Assembly (NCBI RefSeq): GCF_002706795.1
Contig: NZ_CP017705.1
Location: 3,408,501 to 3,472,500 of the forward strand
Direction: 5' to 3'
Source of the DNA: Brevibacillus laterosporus DSM 25
Lineage (GTDB): Bacteria > Bacillota > Bacilli > Brevibacillales > Brevibacillaceae
Length of the DNA stretch: 64,000 nt
The notes under the pieces were generated by a model. That model searched no databases and was not told where the DNA came from. It saw only the letters and a list, made by a program, of their open reading frames with translations. Positions 2,357-14,721 of the stretch are shown here, one piece after another. The translations under genes were made by a program, and so were the position numbers. How positions within the stretch are numbered: the first letter of the stretch is position 1; each line of letters begins with the position of its first letter.

Positions 2357-3049
2357 ATGGAATCATGCATGGACAAGGAAAGGATGGTGACTGTTATGGA
2401 GCATATGGACGAGAAGATTATCGCGATGTTACAGGAGCAGGATGAGAAAAAGGACGAACAAGGACCAAATGCACAGTTGGAAAAGGCGCAGGAACTAGAT
2501 CACAAATGGGCGTACGATCTGCGAAAATCGTTAGTAAAGATTGACGGTGAGATGATTTCATTTGCAGAGCGTAATTTGTTAGAGGAAAAAATAAGCATCC
2601 CTATGCCAAAAGCATTTACCCCAATGACGCCTGAGATGGCGGCAATAAAATACCCTTCAGAACGCAGGCCTACCCTGATTTTTACCAATAGCAATGGTTC
2701 CATTAATGTAGCGATTAATCACACCTCAACTCGATTGACGGATGCCGAAATGGAAGAGTTTACAGCTGCCATGGTGCAGCTGTTGCGTAAGACGCAGAAG
2801 CTTCTTCAATGGCACGGAGATGGTGTAAAAGAAGTGAATGGAAAACCGATTGGCTACTGCGAATTTTTGACACCAGCCTACAATGTTAATCTCTATAATT
2901 TTATGTTTTTTACGGAGCTAGATGGTAAGGCTTTGCTGTGTACGTTCAACTGCATAGAAGATGAGATGGAGGACTGGCGGCTTGTAGCCCGAGGCATGAT
3001 GGAAGCGTTAGTCATCCATAGTGACCAAAAAGGAGGAGAGGAAGAGTGA
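2357..3049 (+). CDS. DcrB/DUF1795-like small protein, possible effector chaperone
   Basis: The product has up to 230 residues. After a charged N-terminus it shows an alpha/beta domain from about residue 75 (IPMPKAFTPMTPEMA, then KYPSERRPTLIF, a strand-rich middle and a long C-terminal helix). This order resembles the DcrB/PsbP-like fold. That fold includes the EagR (DUF1795) chaperones which hold Rhs effectors against VgrG spikes in type VI systems. The assignment rests on pattern and context, not on a clear signature. The start is uncertain: ATG 2357 has a ribosome site too close, and ATG 2396 behind AAGGAAAGG is an alternative. Its stop overlaps the next gene's GTG by 4 bases, which points to coupled translation with the VgrG-like gene. 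Confidence 0.7.
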   Translation: MESCMDKERMVTVMEHMDEKIIAMLQEQDEKKDEQGPNAQLEKAQELDHKWAYDLRKSLVKIDGEMISFAERNLLEEKISIPMPKAFTPMTPEMAAIKYPSERRPTLIFTNSNGSINVAINHTSTRLTDAEMEEFTAAMVQLLRKTQKLLQWHGDGVKEVNGKPIGYCEFLTPAYNVNLYNFMFFTELDGKALLCTFNCIEDEMEDWRLVARGMMEALVIHSDQKGGEEE

Positions 3050-4470
3050 GTTCAACGGTAATTGCGTATCACAATCTCCAGGTTTCCCCTTATCAATTAG
3101 TCAACCTACAAGAGCTAGTCATGACCAAAACGATCAATGAGCATGCCAAAGTAACCTTTACGGGTATTGTGCCAGAGGAGCTAAAAGATAGCTACGTGGA
3201 AATGACGCAAGCCGAGACACCGCTTACGATCAGCCAGATTGACGAAAAGGGCGGAAGTACGCCTATCTTTAACGGACTCGTACTCCATATTGAAATTAAA
3301 GCAGTGCGGGGCATCTATTATATGCAGGTCGAAGCGGTTTCACATTCCTACAAGCTGGATATTAAGCGTAAAAAACGTTCCTTTCAAAATAAAAATATGA
3401 CCTACTCCGCGCTGATCAAACAGATTGCTGCCGACTATCCTGGACTAGATGTAATGGACAGTGTATCAAAAGGTGGTAAGCTCGGAGAATTTACCATGCA
3501 ATATGACGAGACGGATTGGCAGTTCCTCAAGCGAATGGCCTCTCGATTCAATGCAGGTCTCGCGCCAGCTTCCATTTTTGATAAGCCTAAGTTTTATTTC
3601 GGAATGCCAGAGGGTGGTTCCAAGGGCAAACTGGAGGATTTCCACTATAGCGTAAAAAAACGCATGTCTGCTTTCAGGCACTCCTCAGAGAATCATATCC
3701 CAGGTATTCAGGAGAATGATTTTATCTACTATGAAGTGGAATCGGACAGAGTGCTAGAGGTAGGACACGGGGTACAATTCCTAGGCAAAACGCTGTTTGT
3801 GGCGGAAGCCTATACAGAAATGAAAAAGGGGTTATTAAAGCATGTTTACACGCTTTGCACCAAAAAAGGAATGAGCCAAAACAAGCTTTTTAACTCGAAA
3901 ATCGTCGGAGCCTCCGTGCAAGGAAAGGTCATTGAGATTGCCAAGGATACGGTGAAGGTGCACCTCTCGATCGACGAAAACCAGAACAAGAGTGAAGCGC
4001 ATTGGTTCCCATATTCCTCGGTTTATACCGCAGAAGGAAACAGCGGCTGGTATTGTATGCCAGAGCTTAATGACCACGTGCGTGTCTATTTTCCTGGCAA
4101 TAAAGAAGGGGATGGGGTCGCTAGTAGCTCCGTTCGTCAGGATGCGGGAGAGGCTCAGAATAATAAGCTAGGCAATCCGGATATTAAATATTTCCGTACA
4201 CCTAATGGCAAGGAGCTCATGATGAGCCCTAGTGAGATCGTGATCACTGCTAAAGACGGTGAGATTTTTATCAGGCTAAACGATCAGGACGGTATTCAGA
4301 TCATGAGTAAGAAAAAAATCAAGATCATCTCTGAGGAAGACATCATGATGGACTCAGAGAAAAAGGTGATTATCTCTGCTAAGGAAGAGATCAACATAAC
4401 CTGCAAGGAGAGCAATATCAAGATGGATGGCAATACCATGATCATGGGGAATGAGACTAAGACAAACTAA
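3046..4470 (+). CDS. VgrG-like spike protein (phage late control D family)
   Basis: The 474-residue protein has the layout of VgrG and phage gpD/gp27-gp5 spikes. Residues 1 to about 240 form a gp27-like hub region. Residues of about 285-365 form a gp5-like OB-fold (VQGKVIEIAKDTVKVHLS, then HWFPYSSVYTAEG). The C-terminus is short-period beta strands (EIFIRL, IQIMSKKKIKII, VIISAKEEINITC), as expected of a beta-helix needle. It starts with GTG behind AAAGGAGGAGAGG. It is a clear paralogue of the N-terminal part of the giant Rhs protein downstream: both share SFQ(N/D)KNMTY, the ETDW.F.KRMASRF motif and FPYSSVY. In Gram-negatives such a trimer tips the type VI needle; what it docks on here is not visible. 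Confidence 0.85.
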   Translation: MSSTVIAYHNLQVSPYQLVNLQELVMTKTINEHAKVTFTGIVPEELKDSYVEMTQAETPLTISQIDEKGGSTPIFNGLVLHIEIKAVRGIYYMQVEAVSHSYKLDIKRKKRSFQNKNMTYSALIKQIAADYPGLDVMDSVSKGGKLGEFTMQYDETDWQFLKRMASRFNAGLAPASIFDKPKFYFGMPEGGSKGKLEDFHYSVKKRMSAFRHSSENHIPGIQENDFIYYEVESDRVLEVGHGVQFLGKTLFVAEAYTEMKKGLLKHVYTLCTKKGMSQNKLFNSKIVGASVQGKVIEIAKDTVKVHLSIDENQNKSEAHWFPYSSVYTAEGNSGWYCMPELNDHVRVYFPGNKEGDGVASSSVRQDAGEAQNNKLGNPDIKYFRTPNGKELMMSPSEIVITAKDGEIFIRLNDQDGIQIMSKKKIKIISEEDIMMDSEKKVIISAKEEINITCKESNIKMDGNTMIMGNETKTN

Positions 4471-4505
4471 TTGCCTAAGCTTCTATGAAAGAGAGGAGGG
4501 AGAGA

Positions 4506-5780
4506 ATGGACAGGACAGAAGCGATGCCGCATTTTTTGACAAATGTAGTGGAGCCTGCACGACTGCGAGCATTGATGCGCCTAGAGCAGGATTTTCAGAC
4601 CAATAAAACTGCTTTAGCTACAGAATGGACGATCGCTTTTCAACGGATTTGCAAGCAGCTAGGTGGCGAACAGATTCGAAAGGACAAACCGTTGATTGGG
4701 CATCTTACCTTTTCGTTGTTGCGAACCGAGTTAGCGGTAGGGCGAGCCATTTATTTAGTGGAGGCGACCGATAGCTCTTGGTTTTTTGATCGGAATCCTT
4801 GCCAAACAGAATATGATGCTAGCTGGGCATTACGCTATCTAGATCAGTTGAAGGATGAAATCAACAGCGGTAGTAAGGCCTATATGGGTGCTATTACACT
4901 ACCAGACGTGGAGCAAATCATCTTAAGAGAAGCCGTTCATTTTCATCAGTACGTAATTCAGTTAGCTAGATATGCCTTGCCGACAGCGATTGAATCACAG
5001 GAATTTGTAGAGTTATCCACAGAGGATGTTGTTGAAATACGTGTTGGTGAATACATGGACGTTAGCGAAGTCGTGTATAAAATAGATCGGCGAGCACGAG
5101 ATGCCCAATCAGTCAGGGAATGGATCGATGAAGGAAGCGAACAGGAATATGCCTATGAAGTTTTCGACCGTGTAGATTTGTCTAAAGGAGATTATTCGGA
5201 GCTGGATTTCCGCTATTCACGTTTCGAGCATAGTGATCTATCCGACGCTCGGTTCAACGGTTGTGTACTAATGGGCACAAGGTGGAATCATTCGCGACTA
5301 GCTCAGGCAGATTTCTCCTACAGCCTCCTGTTCGGAGCTAATTTTTATCAGAGTGAGCTATCAGGAGCAGACTTCAATGGAATCCAAGCTTCTCAAGGAT
5401 TGTTGGAGCCAGATAGTTGGGAAATGCCAGGCTTTTGGGAAATTTCCTTTACAGAAGCTAATTTGCCAGGAGCCAGCTTTGTCGGTGCTCACTTAGCGGG
5501 AGCCCAATTTAGTAGAGCCAATCTCGTGGGCGTGAATTTTGCTGGAGCCGATTTGACGGACGCCAGCTTCACAGATGCTAATTTACGTGGGGCAGTGTTT
5601 GTTGGGGCTAGTGTGGCATCTGTCGATTTTACTGGAGCGGATGTAGAAGGTGCATCCTTTTCAGCACGAGATCAAGGCAAGCTGAACGTAGACGAGCGAC
5701 AACAAGCCACTGTTATATGGATAGAAGCAGAGAGCGAGGGGGCGTACCTAGATGAGCTATTTTATTCTGTCCCAAGATAA
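4506..5780 (+). CDS. Pentapeptide-repeat protein
   Basis: The 424-residue product has an N-terminal part of about 200 residues without repeats, then a long run of A(D/N)LXX pentapeptides from about residue 215 to 395 (for example ANLPGASFVGAHLAGAQF). These fold as a right-handed quadrilateral beta-helix. The start is taken as ATG 4506 because the GAGGAGG ribosome site (4493-4499) lies between it and an earlier in-frame ATG at 4485. Pentapeptide-repeat proteins occur in VgrG/Rhs loci of other bacteria, where some act as adaptor or carrier parts. A DNA-mimic role, as in the Qnr proteins, is another known use of the fold. The partner here is unknown. The end overlaps the next gene by 29 bases. 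Confidence 0.85.
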   Translation: MDRTEAMPHFLTNVVEPARLRALMRLEQDFQTNKTALATEWTIAFQRICKQLGGEQIRKDKPLIGHLTFSLLRTELAVGRAIYLVEATDSSWFFDRNPCQTEYDASWALRYLDQLKDEINSGSKAYMGAITLPDVEQIILREAVHFHQYVIQLARYALPTAIESQEFVELSTEDVVEIRVGEYMDVSEVVYKIDRRARDAQSVREWIDEGSEQEYAYEVFDRVDLSKGDYSELDFRYSRFEHSDLSDARFNGCVLMGTRWNHSRLAQADFSYSLLFGANFYQSELSGADFNGIQASQGLLEPDSWEMPGFWEISFTEANLPGASFVGAHLAGAQFSRANLVGVNFAGADLTDASFTDANLRGAVFVGASVASVDFTGADVEGASFSARDQGKLNVDERQQATVIWIEAESEGAYLDELFYSVPR

Positions 5781-6309
5781 TCGCATATTAGACGCTGTGG
5801 AGCCTGCGGGACTTACCAACCTTCTAACCAAAGAGATGTTAACCGAGGAAAAGGTGCATCTTCTAGATGAATTGGTCTTGCAGGTTCCCATTCAGCAACG
5901 AGAGCATGTCACCTACGTGGATTTTATTCAACGTCCGATTCCCTTGTTGTCTGATCGCCTCAAACAGCTGGTGGTCAAATATGTACCAAAAATGCTGTGC
6001 AAGGCTGTGGTACTCGCAGATCGGGAGCAGATGAGACAGGATTTGTACTGGGTGTTTGTGCCCCCACGTATCGACTGCCTATCAGATAAGACCGAGTTTT
6101 ATCAGGACAATACAATGAAACGACTCATTTTAGATCAGAACAAGATTGGTAGACGATCATTTTTTCGCATAAACGGCATTCGTGAAGAGCATCTTGTAGT
6201 CAATCTGGGACTGGCGGAAAGTATTCTGCGCCGGGATTTTATAGGCATCCAGCTTCAAAAAGTAGAGCTGGAGGTCCAAAGAGAGGATGAGATGAAATGG
6301 CCCTCATAG
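5752..6309 (+). CDS. Imm11/Imm43 (DUF1629)-like protein of the Rhs locus
   Basis: The 185-residue cytoplasmic protein resembles the DUF1629/Imm11-Imm43 group of predicted immunity proteins. The pattern is an N-terminal YFIL start, a middle PLLSDRLKQLV(V) stretch that in this group aligns the 'P.vs..lk..le' motif, and a C-terminal VVNLGLAESILRRDFIGI helix-strand unit. It overlaps the pentapeptide gene by 29 bases and the PAAR-like gene by 13 bases, so the three are very likely translationally coupled. It lies before the toxin gene and between structural genes, which is unusual for an immunity gene. It may instead be an adaptor that borrowed the fold. The family call is moderate. Confidence 0.7.
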   Translation: MSYFILSQDNRILDAVEPAGLTNLLTKEMLTEEKVHLLDELVLQVPIQQREHVTYVDFIQRPIPLLSDRLKQLVVKYVPKMLCKAVVLADREQMRQDLYWVFVPPRIDCLSDKTEFYQDNTMKRLILDQNKIGRRSFFRINGIREEHLVVNLGLAESILRRDFIGIQLQKVELEVQREDEMKWPS

Positions 6310-6725
6310 AAGACGTGGAAGTAGAAGGTGGAGAAGGAGCCAAGAAAAGCTACGTGGTGGCAGGAGCCATTCTTACATGCACCTTTGGCACCCAAAAAAG
6401 TCGATTGAAAACCCCACTAAGCCATGGGGTATTTGTGAAAGAAAAGGCGCAAATGAACATCAATGATTTCGTGCCAAATGTAAACATCATGCCCTTTGGC
6501 AGATGCGGTAACCTAGCAAATCCAGAGGTAGCAGCGGCGACGGAAGCAAATGGCGGCTATTTAAAGCGTATGCCATGCATGCCGATTGTCACCATGCCAT
6601 GGATTGGGGGCAAAGAGGACAAGCTGATCGAAGACGCGCCCGTACTGCTCAACGATTGCACCAACATGTGCTTACATTGTGGCGGACAGATAAGCATCAT
6701 CGACGACGGACAGGAATTGGACTAA
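6297..6725 (+). CDS. DUF4280 PAAR-like spike-tip protein
   Basis: The 142-residue product matches the DUF4280 pattern: YVVAGAILTCTFGTQKSRLK near the start, a central NIMPFGRCGNLANPEVAAAT, then KRMPCMPIV and a C-terminal NDCTNMCLHCGGQI. The paired cysteines and histidine (C...C..C...CLHCGG) recall the metal-binding tip of PAAR repeats, and DUF4280 is treated as a PAAR-like family. Such proteins sharpen a VgrG trimer and attach effectors. It lies 42 bases before the VgrG-Rhs gene and overlaps the upstream gene by 13 bases. This placement, right before the effector, fits a tip that links the VgrG trimer to the Rhs toxin. Confidence 0.85.
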   Translation: MALIEDVEVEGGEGAKKSYVVAGAILTCTFGTQKSRLKTPLSHGVFVKEKAQMNINDFVPNVNIMPFGRCGNLANPEVAAATEANGGYLKRMPCMPIVTMPWIGGKEDKLIEDAPVLLNDCTNMCLHCGGQISIIDDGQELD

Positions 6726-6767
6726 ATCTGAATGAACCATACCACCCATCGGGAGGGGGGATTGTGT

Positions 6768-9700
6768 GTGAAAACGACAGCTAAAGTAGCGGGATACGGA
6801 AACCTTCAAGTCGTATCTCCCTACGATATACAAACATTGCAGGAGCTACAGCTAGTCAAAGAAGCAAACGACCACGCCAAGCTCTATCTAACCGGAATCA
6901 TTCCGGAAGAGAAGAAGGATAGCTACATCGCCATGGCCACGAGTAGCGATATCATCGAGGTCAACGAGGTAGAGGACGGAAGAGTGGTCCGGAATCTATT
7001 TACGGGACTCATAGAAAATATCGGCGTTCGAGCTGTCCGTGGCATCTACTATATCGAGCTAGAAGGCATCTCGCTGACAAGCCAGCTAGATATAAAAGAG
7101 AAGACTAGATCCTTTCAAGATAAGAACATGACGTACACAGCTCTACTAGATTTGATTCTAAAGGATTATCCAGGATCAGACTATCTCGATTATGCTACAA
7201 ACGGTGCCAAATTAGAAGGCTTTACGCTGCAATATAAAGAGACAGATTGGGCGTTTATCAAGCGAATGGCGTCACGTTTTGGTGCGGTTTTGTTACCAGA
7301 AACAAGCTCCAAGACGCCGAAGTTCTCACTTGGTGTGCCAGATGGAAAATTAGGACAACTACACGACTATCACTACGGTGTGGCACGATCATTAGACAGG
7401 TACACGGAAGCCACCACGGGACATGGTAGCGAGCTAGACGAGACAGCCTTCACTCACTATACGGCGGAAAGCGGACAGTATTTTGCATTGGGAGACAAGG
7501 TAGTATTTCAAGAGAAGGAGCTGACGGTAGCGGCATCTACAGCGCGTTTTATCGAAGGCGGCTTGTTATATGCCTACACCCTTTGCCAAGAGGAAGGCGT
7601 TTTGCAGAACCCGATTCGAAATGAACAGCTAACAGGTGTCTCACTCGAAGGAAAAATTATGGAGATTCGCAGAGATACTGTCAAAGTTCACCTCGATATC
7701 GATAAAACCCAAGACAAGGGCAAGGCCTGGTGGTTTCCGTATTCCTCTGTCTATTCAACAGAAGGTGCCGACGGCTTTCACTGTATGCCACAGGAGGGAG
7801 ATGCTGTCCAGGTTTATTTCGCAACCAGCCAGGAGGACGGGGCGGTAGCGATGAGCTCCGTGCGCAAAACAGGACAGGATTCACCGAAGATGGGCAATCC
7901 AAGCGAAAAATACTGGGGCACTAACTTTGGCAAGGAGATGAAGCTGGGCGGCTCTGATTTTGTGCTCACTGCAAAGGATACAAAAGAAGGCAAGATGTTT
8001 ATTAAGCTGGATGTAGAAGACGGCATCGAAATACATAGCGATAAGGCGATTATGTTTTCCGCGGAAAAGGACTTGGAGATTGAGACAGATACTAAGTTTG
8101 AGATTAAAGCACAGGAAGCGATTTATCTGCTGTGTAAGGAAAGCAGTATTGTGTTAGATGGGGAGACGGATATTCAGGGAACGGTGCTAAAAGTAGATGG
8201 CCTGATTAAATCCCCCGTTTCGGTGGCTGACCTAGAGCCGGAGCCAGAGCCAGAGGACCCAGCTCCTCCACCACCGCCGCCGGAGGAAGAAAAGGGCTTC
8301 TGGGGAAGCTTACTGGATGGCGTGCAGTTGGCGCTAGATGTAGTGGGGATGATTCCGGTAGTTGGGATCGTTGCCGATGTTGCTAATGCGGGGATCTCGG
8401 TAGCTCGCGGAGATTATGCAGGAGCGGCTCTTTCCTTAGTGGCGTGTATTCCATTTGCTGGAGCAGCCGCGACCGGAGCTAAGCTTGGAATGAAAGCCGC
8501 GAAGGCGTTAAAAATGGGAAAAACAGTAGCCAAAGTAGCTGATAAAGCCGCCGATGTAGCCAAAGTGGTCACAAAGGTAGCTGATGTAGTAGTTGGAAAG
8601 GTCTATACCGCCTCGCGTAAGCTAAAGAGCACTGTCAATCAATTAGCAGCTGTTCAGAAGATGAAAAGCAGTATGAAGCTCAAGGCAATGGCAAACAGTC
8701 GTGTTGGTAAAATTGGAAAAGCCATTACAAAAGAAGTCGCGACAGAAGCAGGATACCAAGTGCTAGAAGAAGTGGCTGGTAGTGGGGTTGCCACTGTTGC
8801 GGGCTTACTGGGTGGTAAAAGGAACCGACACAAAGGAAAGAAAAAGCTATCGAAAAAAGAGCGTAAAAAAGCCGCTCAAAAAGCAAGGAATGCAGAAAAG
8901 GCAAAACAAAAGAATCCGAAGAGCGCCAATGAAAAAAGCTGCCTACGTGATCCGATTCATGCTGGCTCTGGTGCGCAATTTATCATTCATCCTACCCTGA
9001 AGCTGTATGGAGCTGAGACATGGACATTCGAGCTACATTACAATTCGATGCTTCTCCAGCAGGGCGTGCTCGGAAAAGCTTGGACGCATAATTATGAGAT
9101 GCATGCCGACATGGAGCGTATAGACCAAGGTGAGATTACCATCTGGTGGAATACGGGCAGAAGAAATGTGTTTATGCAGACGAAAGCAGATCCTACTCTG
9201 TACCGTTCAACAGATGTTGATATGATGTTTTATGAGCTGCTCCAAACAGGAGATGGCTACGAACTATACAGTCGAAACACACGGGAAACGTACTTTTTTA
9301 AACGAAACGGGCAGTTAAGTAAACAAACGAACGCTTTGGGACAATCTCTTGTATTCAACTATGATTCTTATCATCGCCTTGTCAACATGAGAGATGCCAT
9401 TACAGGTCACTCTTTATCTTTGCAGTATGGACAAGACGGGTTATTATACCGTGTTCATGATGTCTCTCGCAGTGTACAATTCGACTACAACGAGTCGCAT
9501 CGCCTCAGCCAATTCATTGATCCGAATGGAACGGTCAGCGAACTAATATACACCGCTCAAGGACAGATCGAGTCACTTACTGTGAACGGAATCATGCAGT
9601 ACCAGAATACCTACGACCATGAGGGAAGGGTCATTGCACAAACGAATGCTTTGGGCCTAGCTTCTCACTTTAGCTACGACACACAAAGCATGCCTGGTTC

Positions 9701-12700
9701 CATGATTACGACTTTCACAGACAGCTTGGGTGTAACCGAGGTCTTGGTTCATGACGAGCGGATGCTACTAGTAGAGAAACAAGAAAAAGACGGTATCCGT
9801 GTGTCGTATGAATATAATGACCGAGGTCAAATGATTTCCGAAACAGTAGGAAAAGAAGAGACCACCACCTACGAGTACGATCAACGAGGCAATCTGATTC
9901 AAGTAATCGACCCACTAGGGAATCAAACCAGCTATGTATACAGCGAGGACGATCTACTGCTGTCCGAAATCAATGCGGAGGGTGGCATCACGAGCTACAC
10001 GTATGATGAGAGAGGACGTTTGGTAAGCATTACCCGCCCCGACGAAAGTCGCTCAGAGATTGGCTACAACGAGCACGGACAACGCGTAAGCTATACAGAT
10101 TCGAATGATGTGACGAGCCGTTATCAATACGATGACAAAGGCTACCTCACAGCTGTCTATGACGGAGAAGGTCGTGTCATACAGGTAGGCTACGACGAGG
10201 TTGGTCGTATTGCATCGTTCCAAGATGGACGGGGTGGCAAAGTACGCCGCACCTATGATGCTAACGATAACATCGTACAAGTAATCGATCCGCTTGGACG
10301 CCCGTATTCCTTTGCCTATGATGCCTTCGATCATCGTGTGGAAGAAACGATGCCTTCAGGAGCAACCACCCGTTATCGCTATCATGTGCTAGGACAAGTG
10401 GAGAGCATAACGGACGCGCTAGGACAAACAACCACCTATCGGTATGACGCAGAGGGCCAGTTGATAGCTGTTATCCAGCCAAATGAAGCGGAAATTCACT
10501 ATGAGCGGGATCAAATGGGGCGCATTATCTCCATTACAGATCCATTAGGGCGAACCGAGAAAGCCGCCTATGATGAAAACGGACGCCTCATTCAGGTTTG
10601 GGATGCACTGGGAAATAAGGTACAGGACGTCAGCTATGATGCAGGAGGCAATCTCGTTTCCGCTACAGATGCCTTAGGTCATACAACGCTGTACGGTTTT
10701 AATAAATTATACCAATGCACCAAAAAGACAAATGCCCTCGGACAAACCACAACCTACGCCTATGATGCTGTTGCTCGTCTAACCGAGGTTATGGAAAACG
10801 ACGCCGCGATCTATCGTCAGCAATATGACAAGGAAGGGCGCCTCATCAGCTATACCGATGCCAATGAAAACGAAACGACGCTTCGGTACGATCAAAGTGG
10901 GCTGGTGGTGGAGGAACAAAATGCCACCGGGGAAGCTACCCATTTTGCCTATGATGAACGAGGCTGGATGCACAAACGTACCAATGCCAGAGGACAGGAA
11001 ACTCACTATCGCTACGATACCGCCGGTCAGCTGATCGAGCAAAAGGATGAGGTTAGCACAGTTCGTAGAGAATACGATACAGACGGCAATCTCGTCAAGG
11101 TACAGGAAGAAGGAGCAGGAACGAAGCATCGGGAGTACGATCTGTTAGGACGTGTCACTGCTTGTACAGATAGCTACAGAAATACCATTCAATACCGATA
11201 TGACGAAAATAGTCAACTGACCCATCTCATCTATCCAGATGGGAAGATTGTTCAATATACCTACGATGTAGCTGGACAGCTCACGGAGGTAAAAGACTGG
11301 GCAGGACGTCGTACTACCTACACCTACGATGAAAATGGGCGACTGATCAAGACAGTTCGACCAAATGGAACCATCGAGCAGCGCAGCTACGATGCCGCCG
11401 GACAAATGCTGCGTCTGTGGGATCAAAGTCGCCAAGGCGTGATGCTTCAGAAATACCGCTACGTGTACAATGAGCTAGGGCAAATTGTGCAGGAAGAGGA
11501 AAAGCAGTACACCTATGACTCTCTAAAACGACTGGTAAGCGGTGAATGGCCGGGCGGACGCGTCTGGTATAGCTACGATCAAGGTGGAAACGTCACGGGA
11601 ATCGGGACGGTAGAGACCACACCGAAGAAAACGATGGGGTATGGAAAGGACAACCGACTTTCCCAAGTAAATGAGCATCCAGTAGAGATGGATGCAGACG
11701 GCAATCTACTCACATGGACAGAGAATGAAAAAACCCATACCTATGCATACGACGCCCGCAATTGTTTAGTCCGCACAGGTCAAGCACATTACACCTATGA
11801 TGCCGAGCACCTACGTACCTCGATGACGTGGAAGGGAAAGACGACACGCTATGTAGTCGACCAAGTCGAGGAGCTTAGCCGTGTACTTATGGAGCTAGGG
11901 GAAGACGGTAGTCCGAAAGCTTATTATGTGTATGGACAAGGCCTGATCGGTCGAGAGGATGCGCAGGGAAATTACTTGTCGTATCATACAGATATGCGTG
12001 GTAGTACCACGATGCTGAGTGATTGGAGCGGACGCGTCACTGACCGCTACAGCTATGGCGTGTATGGCGAATTAGAACAGCATGATGGTACAACCTCCCA
12101 ACCGTTTTGTTATAATGGTAGAGATGGTGTCATGACCGACCCCAATGGCTTGTATTACATGAGGGCGCGGTATTATCACCCCGGACTGAAGCGTTTCCTG
12201 AATCGAGATATTTTACCAGGGGACGTGACAGAAGGACAGACCTTTAACCGATTTGCCTATGTGAATGGCGATCCAGTTGGTTTTATTGATCCGTTGGGAT
12301 TGGCAGGGCTTGGGACTGGGCAGTGTAAGAAGGATGGAGAGAAAAAAGAACCTGTAGATATTCATTTCGGGGTTGATGAAGCGACTGCAAGAAAAGCAGG
12401 CCATGATAAAATGAAAAAATTTGCTGACCATTTAGCAGAACAAATGACAGAACTAAACTACCTATCTTTGCACAAAACCAATGATTTGGTTATGAATTTA
12501 AGTAATTTCCATAATACTCCACAAAAAATTAGAAATGCTATAATAAATTCAGCTAGAAGAATGGCTAATAAATGGTTAGGAGGTAAAAAAGGGGATGGAT
12601 TAGATGCCGCACATGCTCTAGATTCAGTAGCAGGAGGATATATTTATAAATTTATTGGTCTACGTGATGGATGGGCTAATCAGATGGTGGGAAGATTATG

Positions 12701-12803
12701 GAAGGATAGATGGCAAAAAATACAACCTGGTAAACAACATAATTTAATTCCGGGAGTAAATACAAAAGATGGTTTTGTACATCTCGAAGATTTCTTCAAA
12801 TAA
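6768..12803 (+). CDS. VgrG-Rhs polymorphic toxin with C-terminal type-15-like nuclease domain
   Basis: This giant protein has 2011 residues. Domains in order are: VgrG-like hub and OB-fold with beta strands (1 to about 480); an acidic/proline linker ending in six prolines (about 488-507); a hydrophobic, alanine/glycine-rich segment (about 518-570) that may cross a membrane; a lysine-rich stretch (about 683-723); the Rhs plug start DPIHAGSG (about 728); dozens of YD repeats (about 845-1700); and the Rhs core (GLYYMRARYYHP near 1800) ending in DPLGL at 1841-1845, the usual self-cleavage boundary. The last 165 residues are the toxin, with HALDSVAGG (HxxD at 1949-1952) and a WANQMVGRLWKDRW helix. 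This resembles polymorphic toxin type 15 (Ntox15), whose member Tde1 is a DNase. GTG 6768 is chosen because GGGAGGGGGG (6751-6760) precedes it; ATG 6732 lies before that site. Confidence 0.9.
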   Translation: MKTTAKVAGYGNLQVVSPYDIQTLQELQLVKEANDHAKLYLTGIIPEEKKDSYIAMATSSDIIEVNEVEDGRVVRNLFTGLIENIGVRAVRGIYYIELEGISLTSQLDIKEKTRSFQDKNMTYTALLDLILKDYPGSDYLDYATNGAKLEGFTLQYKETDWAFIKRMASRFGAVLLPETSSKTPKFSLGVPDGKLGQLHDYHYGVARSLDRYTEATTGHGSELDETAFTHYTAESGQYFALGDKVVFQEKELTVAASTARFIEGGLLYAYTLCQEEGVLQNPIRNEQLTGVSLEGKIMEIRRDTVKVHLDIDKTQDKGKAWWFPYSSVYSTEGADGFHCMPQEGDAVQVYFATSQEDGAVAMSSVRKTGQDSPKMGNPSEKYWGTNFGKEMKLGGSDFVLTAKDTKEGKMFIKLDVEDGIEIHSDKAIMFSAEKDLEIETDTKFEIKAQEAIYLLCKESSIVLDGETDIQGTVLKVDGLIKSPVSVADLEPEPEPEDPAPPPPPPEEEKGFWGSLLDGVQLALDVVGMIPVVGIVADVANAGISVARGDYAGAALSLVACIPFAGAAATGAKLGMKAAKALKMGKTVAKVADKAADVAKVVTKVADVVVGKVYTASRKLKSTVNQLAAVQKMKSSMKLKAMANSRVGKIGKAITKEVATEAGYQVLEEVAGSGVATVAGLLGGKRNRHKGKKKLSKKERKKAAQKARNAEKAKQKNPKSANEKSCLRDPIHAGSGAQFIIHPTLKLYGAETWTFELHYNSMLLQQGVLGKAWTHNYEMHADMERIDQGEITIWWNTGRRNVFMQTKADPTLYRSTDVDMMFYELLQTGDGYELYSRNTRETYFFKRNGQLSKQTNALGQSLVFNYDSYHRLVNMRDAITGHSLSLQYGQDGLLYRVHDVSRSVQFDYNESHRLSQFIDPNGTVSELIYTAQGQIESLTVNGIMQYQNTYDHEGRVIAQTNALGLASHFSYDTQSMPGSMITTFTDSLGVTEVLVHDERMLLVEKQEKDGIRVSYEYNDRGQMISETVGKEETTTYEYDQRGNLIQVIDPLGNQTSYVYSEDDLLLSEINAEGGITSYTYDERGRLVSITRPDESRSEIGYNEHGQRVSYTDSNDVTSRYQYDDKGYLTAVYDGEGRVIQVGYDEVGRIASFQDGRGGKVRRTYDANDNIVQVIDPLGRPYSFAYDAFDHRVEETMPSGATTRYRYHVLGQVESITDALGQTTTYRYDAEGQLIAVIQPNEAEIHYERDQMGRIISITDPLGRTEKAAYDENGRLIQVWDALGNKVQDVSYDAGGNLVSATDALGHTTLYGFNKLYQCTKKTNALGQTTTYAYDAVARLTEVMENDAAIYRQQYDKEGRLISYTDANENETTLRYDQSGLVVEEQNATGEATHFAYDERGWMHKRTNARGQETHYRYDTAGQLIEQKDEVSTVRREYDTDGNLVKVQEEGAGTKHREYDLLGRVTACTDSYRNTIQYRYDENSQLTHLIYPDGKIVQYTYDVAGQLTEVKDWAGRRTTYTYDENGRLIKTVRPNGTIEQRSYDAAGQMLRLWDQSRQGVMLQKYRYVYNELGQIVQEEEKQYTYDSLKRLVSGEWPGGRVWYSYDQGGNVTGIGTVETTPKKTMGYGKDNRLSQVNEHPVEMDADGNLLTWTENEKTHTYAYDARNCLVRTGQAHYTYDAEHLRTSMTWKGKTTRYVVDQVEELSRVLMELGEDGSPKAYYVYGQGLIGREDAQGNYLSYHTDMRGSTTMLSDWSGRVTDRYSYGVYGELEQHDGTTSQPFCYNGRDGVMTDPNGLYYMRARYYHPGLKRFLNRDILPGDVTEGQTFNRFAYVNGDPVGFIDPLGLAGLGTGQCKKDGEKKEPVDIHFGVDEATARKAGHDKMKKFADHLAEQMTELNYLSLHKTNDLVMNLSNFHNTPQKIRNAIINSARRMANKWLGGKKGDGLDAAHALDSVAGGYIYKFIGLRDGWANQMVGRLWKDRWQKIQPGKQHNLIPGVNTKDGFVHLEDFFK

Positions 12804-12830: not shown

Positions 12831-13394
12831 ATGAAAAAGGTATTTTATATGAAAACCAGAGAACGCACTGTGCAAGATAAGAATAATATGTTTATAGATA
12901 GAATTGGAGGTTTGCCTACTCATAGACCTGAAAAATTTCCATTATATTTTGAGGAGATAGAGTATGGTTTTTTAATGCAAATTTATTGCGATAGGGAGAG
13001 GTTTCCAGACATTGAAGGAGTTTTATGCTGGCAAATATATCAAGATATTAATGAACAAGATGATCCAATAATCATAGAAGTACCCTTAGGGGCAGAATTA
13101 AATACTGAAAATGAGGGTACTTCAATTAATAGATTAAGAGAACGTATTATTTATTATGAAGAAGGAATTGAGCCAGATGTACTAGAACTTGGTATAGAGG
13201 TATACTCAGAAGAAGCAGTCGAGTATTTTTCTTCTAAAATAGGTGGAGCTGTTCCAGAAGAGTATATTGATACAGAATTTGAATATCTTGGGTGTATATT
13301 TGAAAATCTTCCCGAAGAGTACGAACTGTATTTTGGTGTCGAGGCATTATATCTGGTTCGAAATCGTGACGGAGAAGTGGTATTAATGTCTTAA
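12831..13394 (+). CDS. Probable cognate immunity protein of the Rhs toxin
   Basis: The 187-residue acidic cytoplasmic protein starts 27 bases after the toxin gene behind a GGAGGT ribosome site. The segment FIDRIGGLPTHRPEKFPL, followed by GFLMQIYCD, faintly recalls DUF1963/YwqG-like proteins, which occur as immunity proteins. I do not recognise the family with certainty. The DNA is clearly more AT-rich than the Rhs shell, as is the toxin tip in front of it, as expected for a toxin-immunity pair swapped in by recombination. The role of neutralising the toxin is inferred from position and composition. Confidence 0.75.
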   Translation: MKKVFYMKTRERTVQDKNNMFIDRIGGLPTHRPEKFPLYFEEIEYGFLMQIYCDRERFPDIEGVLCWQIYQDINEQDDPIIIEVPLGAELNTENEGTSINRLRERIIYYEEGIEPDVLELGIEVYSEEAVEYFSSKIGGAVPEEYIDTEFEYLGCIFENLPEEYELYFGVEALYLVRNRDGEVVLMS

Positions 13395-13728: not shown

Positions 13729-14240
13729 ATGAGTGATTTTGATTTTTTAAAACAATATATTATTGAGCCAGAAATGAAAATTGATTCCTCTAAAAAGCAT
13801 GTATTTTATAGACTTTCAGATGAACAAATTAAGGAAGCTGAAGATAGATGGGGACGAAAATTTCCAAAAGAACTTAGAAATTTTTTTAGTGAGATTGGAT
13901 ATGGGTTTGTTTGTCATAGTTTCCAATCAAGGTTTAACAGATTAATGGATCCAGAGGGTATTGTTGATTTTATTTTTGGAGAAGAGTTTTACACTGATAA
14001 TATCAGGCGAGATGACTATGATCAAGAAAATTTGCTTGTTTTTTTGAGATATCAGAAATTTCTTGTTTAACAATAGATTTATACAAAGAAAATAGTAATG
14101 GCCAATGCCCCATATATTATGAAGATGAGCTAATTGCTAACTCTTTAGAAGAATTTCTAATAAAAATGGATGAAGTTGATTTCTTTGAAAATAAAAGATG
14201 TTATGAACGAATACTTCAAATTAAGAAAGGAATACTTTGA
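13729..14240 (+). pseudogene. SMI1/KNR4 (SUKH) immunity gene broken by a one-base frameshift
   Basis: The first frame gives 113 residues and stops at 14070. It contains a typical SUKH start: LSDEQIKEAEDRWGRKFP, then ELRNFFSEIGYGFV. A run of seven T ends at 14045. If one T is added, the frame continues from GAG 14046 as EISEISCLTIDLYKENSNG and on to a stop at 14238-14240, giving 170 residues, the normal length for this family, with the usual NSLEEFLIKM C-terminal helix. So the gene is either inactivated, switched by slippage, or misread at the T run. It lies behind a good AAAGGGGAG ribosome site. It would protect against a toxin whose gene is not present in this window. Confidence 0.8.
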
Positions 14241-14721
14241 CAAAGGATTGGACTTTCTATTCAAAACAGAATACAACGAAGAAATTGACTCATTCATTTA
14301 TCAAGGTGAGATGGATGATGATGAAGAGATTTTGTGGAAACCGGTTGTGAAAAATACTAATCACCATTTAAAGGAAATCGAAGAACGGTTAGATATTAAA
14401 TTCCACTCTTCAGTTAATGAATATTTTAATTCATATTGGTTTGCTGATTTAGATGGGTTTATTGATAGTCATTATATTAGATTAGAAGCTGTATTGCCAA
14501 ATATCGAATTAGATTCTTTTGAAAGCACGTTAGAAGGATATAAAAACAATCATGGCAATAGACTTTATAAAATTCCTATAGGAATAGAAGGGAATGGCTT
14601 AATAGTTGTTCTAGATAATAAAAATGGGAGGATTGAATTAGGAGATTTTGGAAGGGGATCTTTTGATGTAATATCCAATAGCTTAATGGAGCTAATCTCT
14701 AGTTTAAGATTGCAAAAGTAA
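14203..14721 (+). CDS. Syd-family (SUKH superfamily) protein, likely orphan immunity protein
   Basis: The 172-residue product shows the Syd pattern: an N-terminal helix (MNEYFKLRKEYF), then ILWKPV, a HLKEIEERLDIKFHSSVNEY helix-turn, FADLDGFI, and a C-terminal LIVVLDNKNGRIELGDFG followed by a terminal helix. In enteric bacteria Syd binds SecY. In toxin loci Syd domains are part of the SUKH superfamily of immunity proteins, which fits here better. ATG 14203 matches the usual family start; ATG 14170 is possible. It overlaps the end of the broken SUKH gene. DNA is AT-rich like its neighbours. The matching toxin is not in the window. Confidence 0.75.
   Translation: MNEYFKLRKEYFDKGLDFLFKTEYNEEIDSFIYQGEMDDDEEILWKPVVKNTNHHLKEIEERLDIKFHSSVNEYFNSYWFADLDGFIDSHYIRLEAVLPNIELDSFESTLEGYKNNHGNRLYKIPIGIEGNGLIVVLDNKNGRIELGDFGRGSFDVISNSLMELISSLRLQK

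Follow-up and report, generated by a model that had tools for sequence, protein, structure and literature searches.

Descriptions of the type VI secretion system (T6SS) present it as a Gram-negative system, and examples of VgrG-Rhs fusions from Gram-negative bacteria exist already. VgrG spikes fused to toxins are covered in part of PMC3482391, and a section of PMC13324451 states that Rhs proteins are less commonly fused to VgrG. Here we analysed a 64,000-nucleotide stretch of Brevibacillus laterosporus DSM 25 (contig NZ_CP017705.1, positions 3,408,501 to 3,472,500; hereafter the window), in which a single gene of a Firmicute encodes a VgrG spike joined to an Rhs shell and a polymorphic tail. 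The VgrG-Rhs fusion is a real and under-described observation; it is a variant of a known effector design, and its cluster context is the new part. Overall, the fusion is probably the spike that carries the cargo (VgrG-B) in a conserved Firmicute injection machine that has so far gone undescribed, and this machine is more worth following than the fusion itself. The predicted fold of the VgrG part and the co-occurrence of the machine genes across genomes are the strongest links of this argument.

Several described systems resemble the locus in part. PDB chain 8qja_A ('Putative type VI secretion system YD repeat-containing Rhs element Vgr protein', 1879 aa) was matched by the Rhs shell of the fusion (E = 6.3e-35), and the same chain gave a weak VgrG-profile match (residues 107-171, E = 0.018). 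It appears to be a VgrG-Rhs fusion itself, presumably the one described in Kielkopf 2024. 8qja_A is named as T6SS-associated, whereas the fusion in the window lies in a Firmicute cluster in which neither a T6SS membrane complex nor ClpV was recognised. PAAR-Rhs effectors such as Photorhabdus Rhs1/Tre23, in the parts of PMC8636562 that deal with them, share a pre-shell hydrophobic segment, a shell and a cleaved C-terminal toxin with the fusion. The N-terminus of Rhs1/Tre23 is, however, prePAAR-TMD-PAAR (TMD, transmembrane domain) and docks, with an EagR chaperone, on a VgrG that is a protein of its own, whereas in the window the N-terminus is the VgrG and a PAAR-like DUF4280 protein is encoded separately. 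A section of PMC8651086 places a Firmicute Phage_GPD VgrG next to PAAR_H2, and genes of an extracellular contractile injection system (eCIS) or of a T6SS were not found there. This is probably the same set as in the window, where the DUF4280 protein may be PAAR_H2 rather than H1 or H3. That section names no machine genes, whereas candidates for tube, sheath, chaperone and regulators, with their co-occurrence, were found here. Tvp accessory proteins, which combine DUF2169 with pentapeptide repeats and serve DUF4150 tips (parts of PMC13373197 and PMC11883445), are similar in that a pentapeptide gene here also stands beside a VgrG and a PAAR-like tip. DUF2169 was nevertheless rejected for the window pentapeptide family, unlike for Tvp, with no match among the 19 members of its N-terminal domain alignment. 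No description of the cluster as a machine was found in the open-licence literature that was searched; subscription papers or preprints may contain one.

Domain composition and predicted fold of the fusion

The open reading frame (ORF; 6732-12803, + strand) was uninterrupted over 2023 codons. With the GTG at 6768 as the start, which has a purine-rich GGGAGGGGGG stretch a few bases 5' of it, the product is 2011 aa long (6768-12803), and all residue numbers are counted from this GTG. ORF, Pfam and NCBIfam scans and fold match agreed on one chain consisting of a gp27/gp5-like VgrG part (residues 1-489; 6768-8234), an acidic/proline linker (residues ~490-509; 8235-8294), a hydrophobic Gly/Ala/Pro module (residues 510-576; 8295-8495), a basic stretch, an Rhs shell ending in DPLGL (residues 723-1845; 8934-12302) and a polymorphic C-terminal tail (residues 1846-2011 plus stop; 12303-12803). 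The first-pass annotation had proposed this combination in a single Firmicute polypeptide from the letters alone, and it was right in this; its picture lacked the bare VgrG at 3046-4470 and the conserved genes beyond the upstream end of the window.

The VgrG part was faint at the level of single-sequence scans and clear at the level of structure. Phage_GPD (residues 107-174; E = 6e-5, 22.8 bits) stayed under its 30.1-bit Pfam cut-off, as did Phage_base_V (residues 302-362; E = 0.028) under its own. The part was 45% identical to a stand-alone VgrG encoded nearby (VgrG-A; 474 aa, 3046-4470, +), a bare spike without cargo that matched Phage_GPD above cut-off (39.5 bits) and whose family profile found solved VgrG and eCIS spikes in the PDB at 9e-21. 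In a model of residues 1-730, ten-residue means of the predicted local distance difference test (pLDDT) were 69-94 over residues 11-330 (mostly 83-94) and 52-87 over residues 341-480; beyond 480 the values were mostly <50, except at 691-720. Foldseek ranked contractile-injection spikes at the top for this model (4.2e-24). VIA-align, which covers the families that it lists, aligned it with VgrG1 of Pseudomonas protegens (7q5p_A) at Z 24.6 over 422 residues (11-485) and with T4 gp27 (1k28_D) at Z 14.4 over 253 residues. The root-mean-square deviation to 7q5p_A was 10.6, which indicates that the domains are placed differently in the model. From these matches, the predicted structure of residues 11-485 is a gp27/gp5 fold, the fold on which the earlier claim for residues 1-480 had been staked.

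The Rhs shell was recognised by RHS_repeat (PF05593; 366.8 bits, 22 stretches), DUF6531 (residues 728-802; 42.9 bits, cut-off 24.1) and Rhs_assc_core (TIGR03696; residues 1763-1845; 61.2 bits, cut-off 32.5), and it matched solved Rhs shells in the PDB down to 1.9e-51. We compared the chain in steps of 50 residues with homologues in two near relatives (G132 and G073; G and L numbers are our labels for genomes and loci). Identity was 66-100% through residue 1850 and 0-27% beyond, falling from 98-100% at 1801-1850 to 16-20% in the next step, and the break lay directly after DPLGL (1841-1845). A homologue from another GTDB genus of the same family (G303) also carried a different tail, with the break at the same point, and the window tail was present in 1 of 398 genomes of the class, its own. 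The protein has the repeats, the conserved core end and the exchangeable tail behind a kept shell that characterise Rhs polymorphic toxins. A section of PMC8636562 mentions that Gram-positive bacteria encode WapA Rhs toxins, and the fusion could be read as a secreted toxin of that kind with a relic VgrG domain and no delivery by a spike. This is extremely unlikely, as the VgrG part is conserved across genera with its predicted fold intact, VgrG-A and the DUF4280 gene adjoin, and no Sec-like signal was seen by eye at the N-terminus.

The hydrophobic module was present before the shell, as had been claimed, and was not confined to proteins with Rhs shells. Kyte-Doolittle maxima were found at residues 521-539 (2.09) and 551-571 (1.69, two overlapping windows), and the first was reached in 46 of 2000 shuffles of residues 490-722, so the hydrophobicity by itself is only moderately unusual. 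The 67 columns of the module in alignment A7 were all filled in 12 of the 38 other rows, with at least 53 filled in two more. No YD-repeat pattern was seen in seven relatives (901-1032 aa) that have a VgrG and the module, and in five loci (L121, L146, L148, L149, L150) the module started or sat inside a separate ORF directly after VgrG-B. For example, the VgrG-B of B. dissolubilis ends at 496 aa and the next gene encodes a 374-aa protein starting with the same module, followed by a SUKH-like gene (identified by eye), while in Lysinibacillus fusiformis the module lies within a 517-aa neighbouring protein. Covalent fusion is therefore an optional form of the pairing between VgrG-B and effector, and the fused-or-adjacent pattern suggests that such effectors act together with VgrG-B. 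Membrane entry through the module is plausible. The cage may, as further proposed, sit on the spike tip without a separate adaptor, but DUF4280, Imm11-related and pentapeptide-repeat genes adjoin upstream, and each of the three products could be a tip, an adaptor or a chaperone. One locus (L086; G241:C1:1466001-1486000) held two tandem cassettes of p185, DUF4280, VgrG-B and module, one leading into an Rhs shell and one into other cargo.

A displaced fragment of the fusion was observed elsewhere in the same genome (L118:7972-9270, - strand; C1 ~1577972-1579270). Here 69 residues were 91% identical to the fusion N-terminus, the upstream leader looked similar by eye, and the fragment ran into an apparent ABC-transporter remnant within one ORF.

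Co-occurrence, gene order and paired VgrGs

A 722-aa protein encoded upstream of the window, our candidate sheath, was detected in 34 of 398 genomes of the class (8 of 145 genera). VgrG-A occurred in exactly the same 34, and neither was found alone at the thresholds used (E up to 1e-15 for VgrG-A and up to 0.001 for the candidate sheath). These genomes are related and come from 8 genera, and so do not count as independent cases. Among 398 genomes of the phylum the 722-aa protein was found in 13, and a profile search with its family gave the same 13 and added none. Copies in other genomes were 60-97% identical, save two at 28-30%.

This shared distribution bears on whether the fusion is an orphan effector with unrelated neighbours that rides another contractile tail of the same genome (a prophage tail, R-type bacteriocin or eCIS). 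In favour of such a reading, Phage_sheath_1 was found at three distant loci of the genome, and a Paenibacillus polymyxa plasmid (L213, NZ_CP133769.1, 11220-18606) carried a module of pentapeptide, VgrG, DUF4280 and extended VgrG but no annotated sheath gene within the 35 kb shown (annotation only; DNA not searched further). The plasmid suggests that cargo modules may move apart from the machine. An orphan effector is nonetheless very unlikely given that none of the 398 class genomes had only one of VgrG-A and the 722-aa gene, and that the nearest Phage_sheath_1 locus lies >400 kb away.

Pfam scans of 18 cluster proteins (the Hsp70-like protein scanned in part, FHA2 left out) found no Phage_sheath_1, gp19 (Phage_T4_gp19), Baseplate_J or DUF4255. 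An Afp/PLTS-type eCIS, a type listed for Brevibacillus brevis in part of PMC4122934, was rejected because its marker families were absent from the cluster proteins scanned; marker criteria for T6SS versus eCIS were those in part of PMC8651086.

The conserved cluster comprised about 19 genes, with an upstream part (G000:C1:3394381-3409959) that lies partly outside the window. In order, it encodes a Ser/Thr kinase, a von Willebrand factor A-type (VWA) protein on the opposite strand, the 722-aa protein, a 141-aa tube-like protein, DnaJ, two FHA proteins (the second, FHA2, named by eye only), PP2C, PP2C-TPR, p428, p231 and an Hsp70-like protein of 882 aa. In the window the series continues with p265, p230, VgrG-A, the pentapeptide-repeat protein, p185, DUF4280 and the fusion. 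Relatives shared this order in tblastn searches. When named genomes were scanned with the alignment of the Hsp70-like protein, 351 relatives were obtained and 80 of them kept as loci, from Brevibacillus, Aneurinibacillus, Paenibacillus, Lysinibacillus, Cohnella, Clostridium, Pseudobacteroides and others. Judged by this protein, B. laterosporus MSSRFCCT15 (95%) was the nearest of the genomes listed. Across the 80 loci, p231 and p428 were matched in all, p265 in 79, sheath and tube in 73 each and DUF4280 in 66. Linkage was kept in permuted orders (L178, L184, G435, G727). A compact clostridial form (G637) encoded a DUF4280-like protein that by eye carries a toxin-like extension, then p185, the homologue of the 722-aa protein, tube, VgrG, a protein of 419 aa in the position of p428, p231, the Hsp70-like protein and p265.

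Two kinds of VgrG recurred in these clusters. Exactly two near-complete VgrG domains were found in 59 loci (window plus 80), made up of 47 pairs of bare (tail of 16 residues or fewer) and extended (80 or more) VgrGs, 10 of bare and short-tailed VgrGs and 2 in which the second VgrG was cut by the locus end. In a tree of 30 of these pairs, chosen by hand to be well spread and labelled according to tail length, one branch separated the bare from the extended VgrGs (support 87/96), and none of 500 label shuffles scored as low. The tails of the second VgrG ranged from <100 to >1500 residues, which identifies VgrG-B as an exchangeable cargo carrier. The pair of bare and cargo VgrGs also lends itself to the question of how many cages are carried per spike. 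Swapped order, with the extended VgrG before the bare one, was seen in Paenibacillus tianmuensis, P. tyrfis and Paenibacillus sp. A3 (L128, L134, L179).

Candidate sheath and tube, and the proposed machine

We infer that the 722-aa protein is the sheath of a contractile machine, and this is the weakest link. The protein is encoded directly before the Hcp-like gene, as tssC is before hcp in five of ten T6SS records compared (another gene followed tssC in the rest, one of them unnamed), its length would suit TssB and TssC combined, and together with the tube and FHA2 it belongs to the best conserved proteins of the set. It was first read as 758 aa, and most aligned relatives start near its residue 36. 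Of the 16 tube family members, 12 matched Pfam TssD/Hcp (best 3.2e-5), and the only PDB match of the tube profile was Hcp1 (E = 0.17 and 0.037 with two alignments). A distant tube relative (L178) matched gp19 at E = 0.079, below cut-off.

Profile comparisons by hhalign used T6SS profiles from plasmids of Leisingera, Phaeobacter, Rhizobium, Sphingomonas, Paracoccus, Pseudoalteromonas, Rahnella, Photobacterium and Thalassospira. VgrG was matched (prob 95-97), and sheath, tube (including tube versus Hcp) and the other families were unmatched against these profiles. The 722-aa family reached TssB at E = 0.17 (residues 25-64), with an N-terminal score of 18.1 that 2 of 20 column shuffles equalled or exceeded. 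The same test also failed for TssC against three phage sheaths; the TssB comparison therefore has little power and neither supports nor excludes a relationship. Scans of 722-aa family members in NCBIfam, Pfam and PHROGs gave nothing coherent, the commonest PHROGs match being an unnamed PHROG (7 of 16 members, best 0.0018). NS1-type PDB matches of the 722-aa protein (phmmer and profile) were short (E = 0.008-0.04) and were judged to be chance.

In the machine that we propose, a VgrG-B trimer, alone or with VgrG-A, would sit on a tube of the Hcp-like protein and be capped by the DUF4280 protein, and a sheath of the 722-aa protein would drive this spike out. Linker and hydrophobic module would trail from the spike; in or through the target envelope, the module would enter the target membrane and allow the Rhs cage, or what it contains, to cross. 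According to part of PMC8636562, Rhs1 cleaves itself on both sides of its shell. Here the cage would be cut near DPLGL, the presumed site, and the cut would release a nuclease-like, weakly Ntox15-like toxin against rival bacteria, the producer being protected by the downstream 187-aa protein or by SUKH proteins. The Hsp70-like protein and DnaJ may take the recycling role that ClpV has in the T6SS, and the kinase/FHA/PP2C set may trigger firing.

A number of results weigh against this proposal. The AlphaFold model of the 722-aa protein was of low confidence (pLDDT 38.6; built from alignment A6, 29 similar rows with mean column identity 85%, without the 26-28% members), and neither searches nor profile comparisons linked its family to TssB, TssC or phage sheaths. 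The TssD matches of the tube remained under the Pfam cut-off (best 24.2 bits vs 25.8); in a second tube set 7 of 10 members matched TssD and the copy of the window genome did not. The Ntox15 match of the tail (PF15604; E = 0.0036, 17.8 bits) was below its cut-off of 22.5; the sub-threshold stretch (1944-1986) includes an HxxD motif (HALD, 1949-1952), a passage of PMC3482391 lists Ntox15 with HxxD and Imm-SUKH, and searching the tail against the PDB gave nothing convincing. Sheath matches were absent within 10 kb in 7 of the 80 loci, among them four with the full upstream flank (L158, L164, L173, L175), and VgrG matches were likewise absent in 7, four of them with both full flanks (L133, L159, L184, L188); contig ends account for part of these gaps. 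G724 and G727 gave no VgrG match in the stretches fetched. The split between VgrG-A and VgrG-B was moderately supported, at 86% of 200 bootstrap trees, and Serratia VgrG1 and VgrG2 seem not to heterotrimerise according to part of PMC4924876, which speaks against a mixed A/B spike. Finally, TssJ, TssL, TssM and ClpV were not found in the Pfam scans of the 18 cluster proteins (rest of genome not searched), and with no membrane complex or ClpV recognised in the cluster, the question arises of how such a machine would cross a thick wall.

The low-confidence model, the lack of a detected sheath family and the sub-threshold TssD matches would also suit a non-contractile machine, in which the 722-aa and tube-like proteins form some other assembly (spore, envelope or storage) using VgrG- and PAAR-like folds. 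We consider this unlikely, since a VgrG, a PAAR-like tip, an Hcp-like protein, polymorphic Rhs tails and immunity-like genes together are the make-up of an injection machine. A machine that works inside its own cell, or that is freed by lysis, rather than an anchored cell-to-cell weapon, would account for the lack of a TssJLM-type membrane complex in the scans. Hydrophobic segments were likewise confined, among 19 cluster proteins scanned, to the fusion and four regulators (FHA1, PP2C, PP2C-TPR and VWA). Cytoplasmic contractile injection systems of Streptomyces reportedly act intracellularly or are released by lysis. Such a mode is rather unlikely here, as regulators with membrane segments, immunity-like genes and tails that are polymorphic are in keeping with contact-dependent antagonism.

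Beyond the cargo-carrying spike itself, we tentatively propose that contractile injection systems include, besides T6SS and eCIS, a third class that is native to monoderm Firmicutes and represented by this cluster; we hold this somewhat short of probable. Its marks would be a single 722-aa sheath protein equivalent to a TssB-TssC fusion, an Hcp-like tube, no ClpV or TssJLM, recycling by the Hsp70-like protein and DnaJ, phospho-regulation by kinase, FHA proteins and PP2C, and a bare-plus-cargo VgrG pair of which only one type carries the toxin. If so, the cargo in the window would be a whole Rhs cage behind a membrane module. The locus supplies a concrete gene list, co-occurrence, named species (Brevibacillus, Paenibacillus, Lysinibacillus and others) and a ready effector.

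Neighbouring genes and further observations

All genes of this part of the window lie on the + strand. The 3' part of the Hsp70-like gene, which starts upstream at G000:C1:3407311, occupies 1-1459; its Hsp70/DnaK matches (E = 0.006-0.0009) were under cut-offs, and alignment A5 of this protein held many invariant columns. It is followed by p265 (1528-2325; 265 aa) and p230 (2357-3049; 230 aa; 53 of 80 loci), both conserved and with no confident family, and p231 from the upstream part had no match in the PDB. Between VgrG-A and the fusion lie three genes. The first encodes the pentapeptide-repeat protein (4485-5780; Pentapeptide E = 1.1e-27; 69 of 80 loci), with a conserved N-terminal domain and a possible role as spike chaperone. 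The second encodes p185 (5752-6309; 185 aa; 64 of 80 loci), whose distant family members matched Imm11 (PF07791; L110 3.6e-12, L112 3.1e-9), with no Imm11 match by Pfam in the window copy nor in the L152 copy. The third encodes the DUF4280 PAAR-like spike tip (6297-6725; PF14107, 114.9 bits, cut-off 26.3).

Downstream of the fusion, a 187-aa protein (12831-13394) with no Pfam family is a candidate cognate immunity protein from its position directly after the toxin and its GGAGG ribosome site. Two immunity-like genes follow, of SUKH-1 type (13729-14070; PF09346, 36 bits, cut-off 25.4) and of Syd/SUKH-2 type (14170-14721; PF07348, 59.7 bits, cut-off 25).

Among the other loci, in Paenibacillus sp. 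2.1 (L164) PP2C stood directly after the kinase and VWA genes, and the full 10-kb upstream flank gave no match for sheath, tube, DnaJ or either FHA gene, which would fit the loss or relocation of one half of the machine next to a retained VgrG half. A second Hsp70-like ORF (822 aa, by eye) was present just upstream of the compact clostridial cluster (L112:111-2579; G637). Two more RHS-repeat matches, in ORFs of 541 and 197 aa, were found far from the cluster (G000:C1:4683184 and 4692500; L016, L017, L028).

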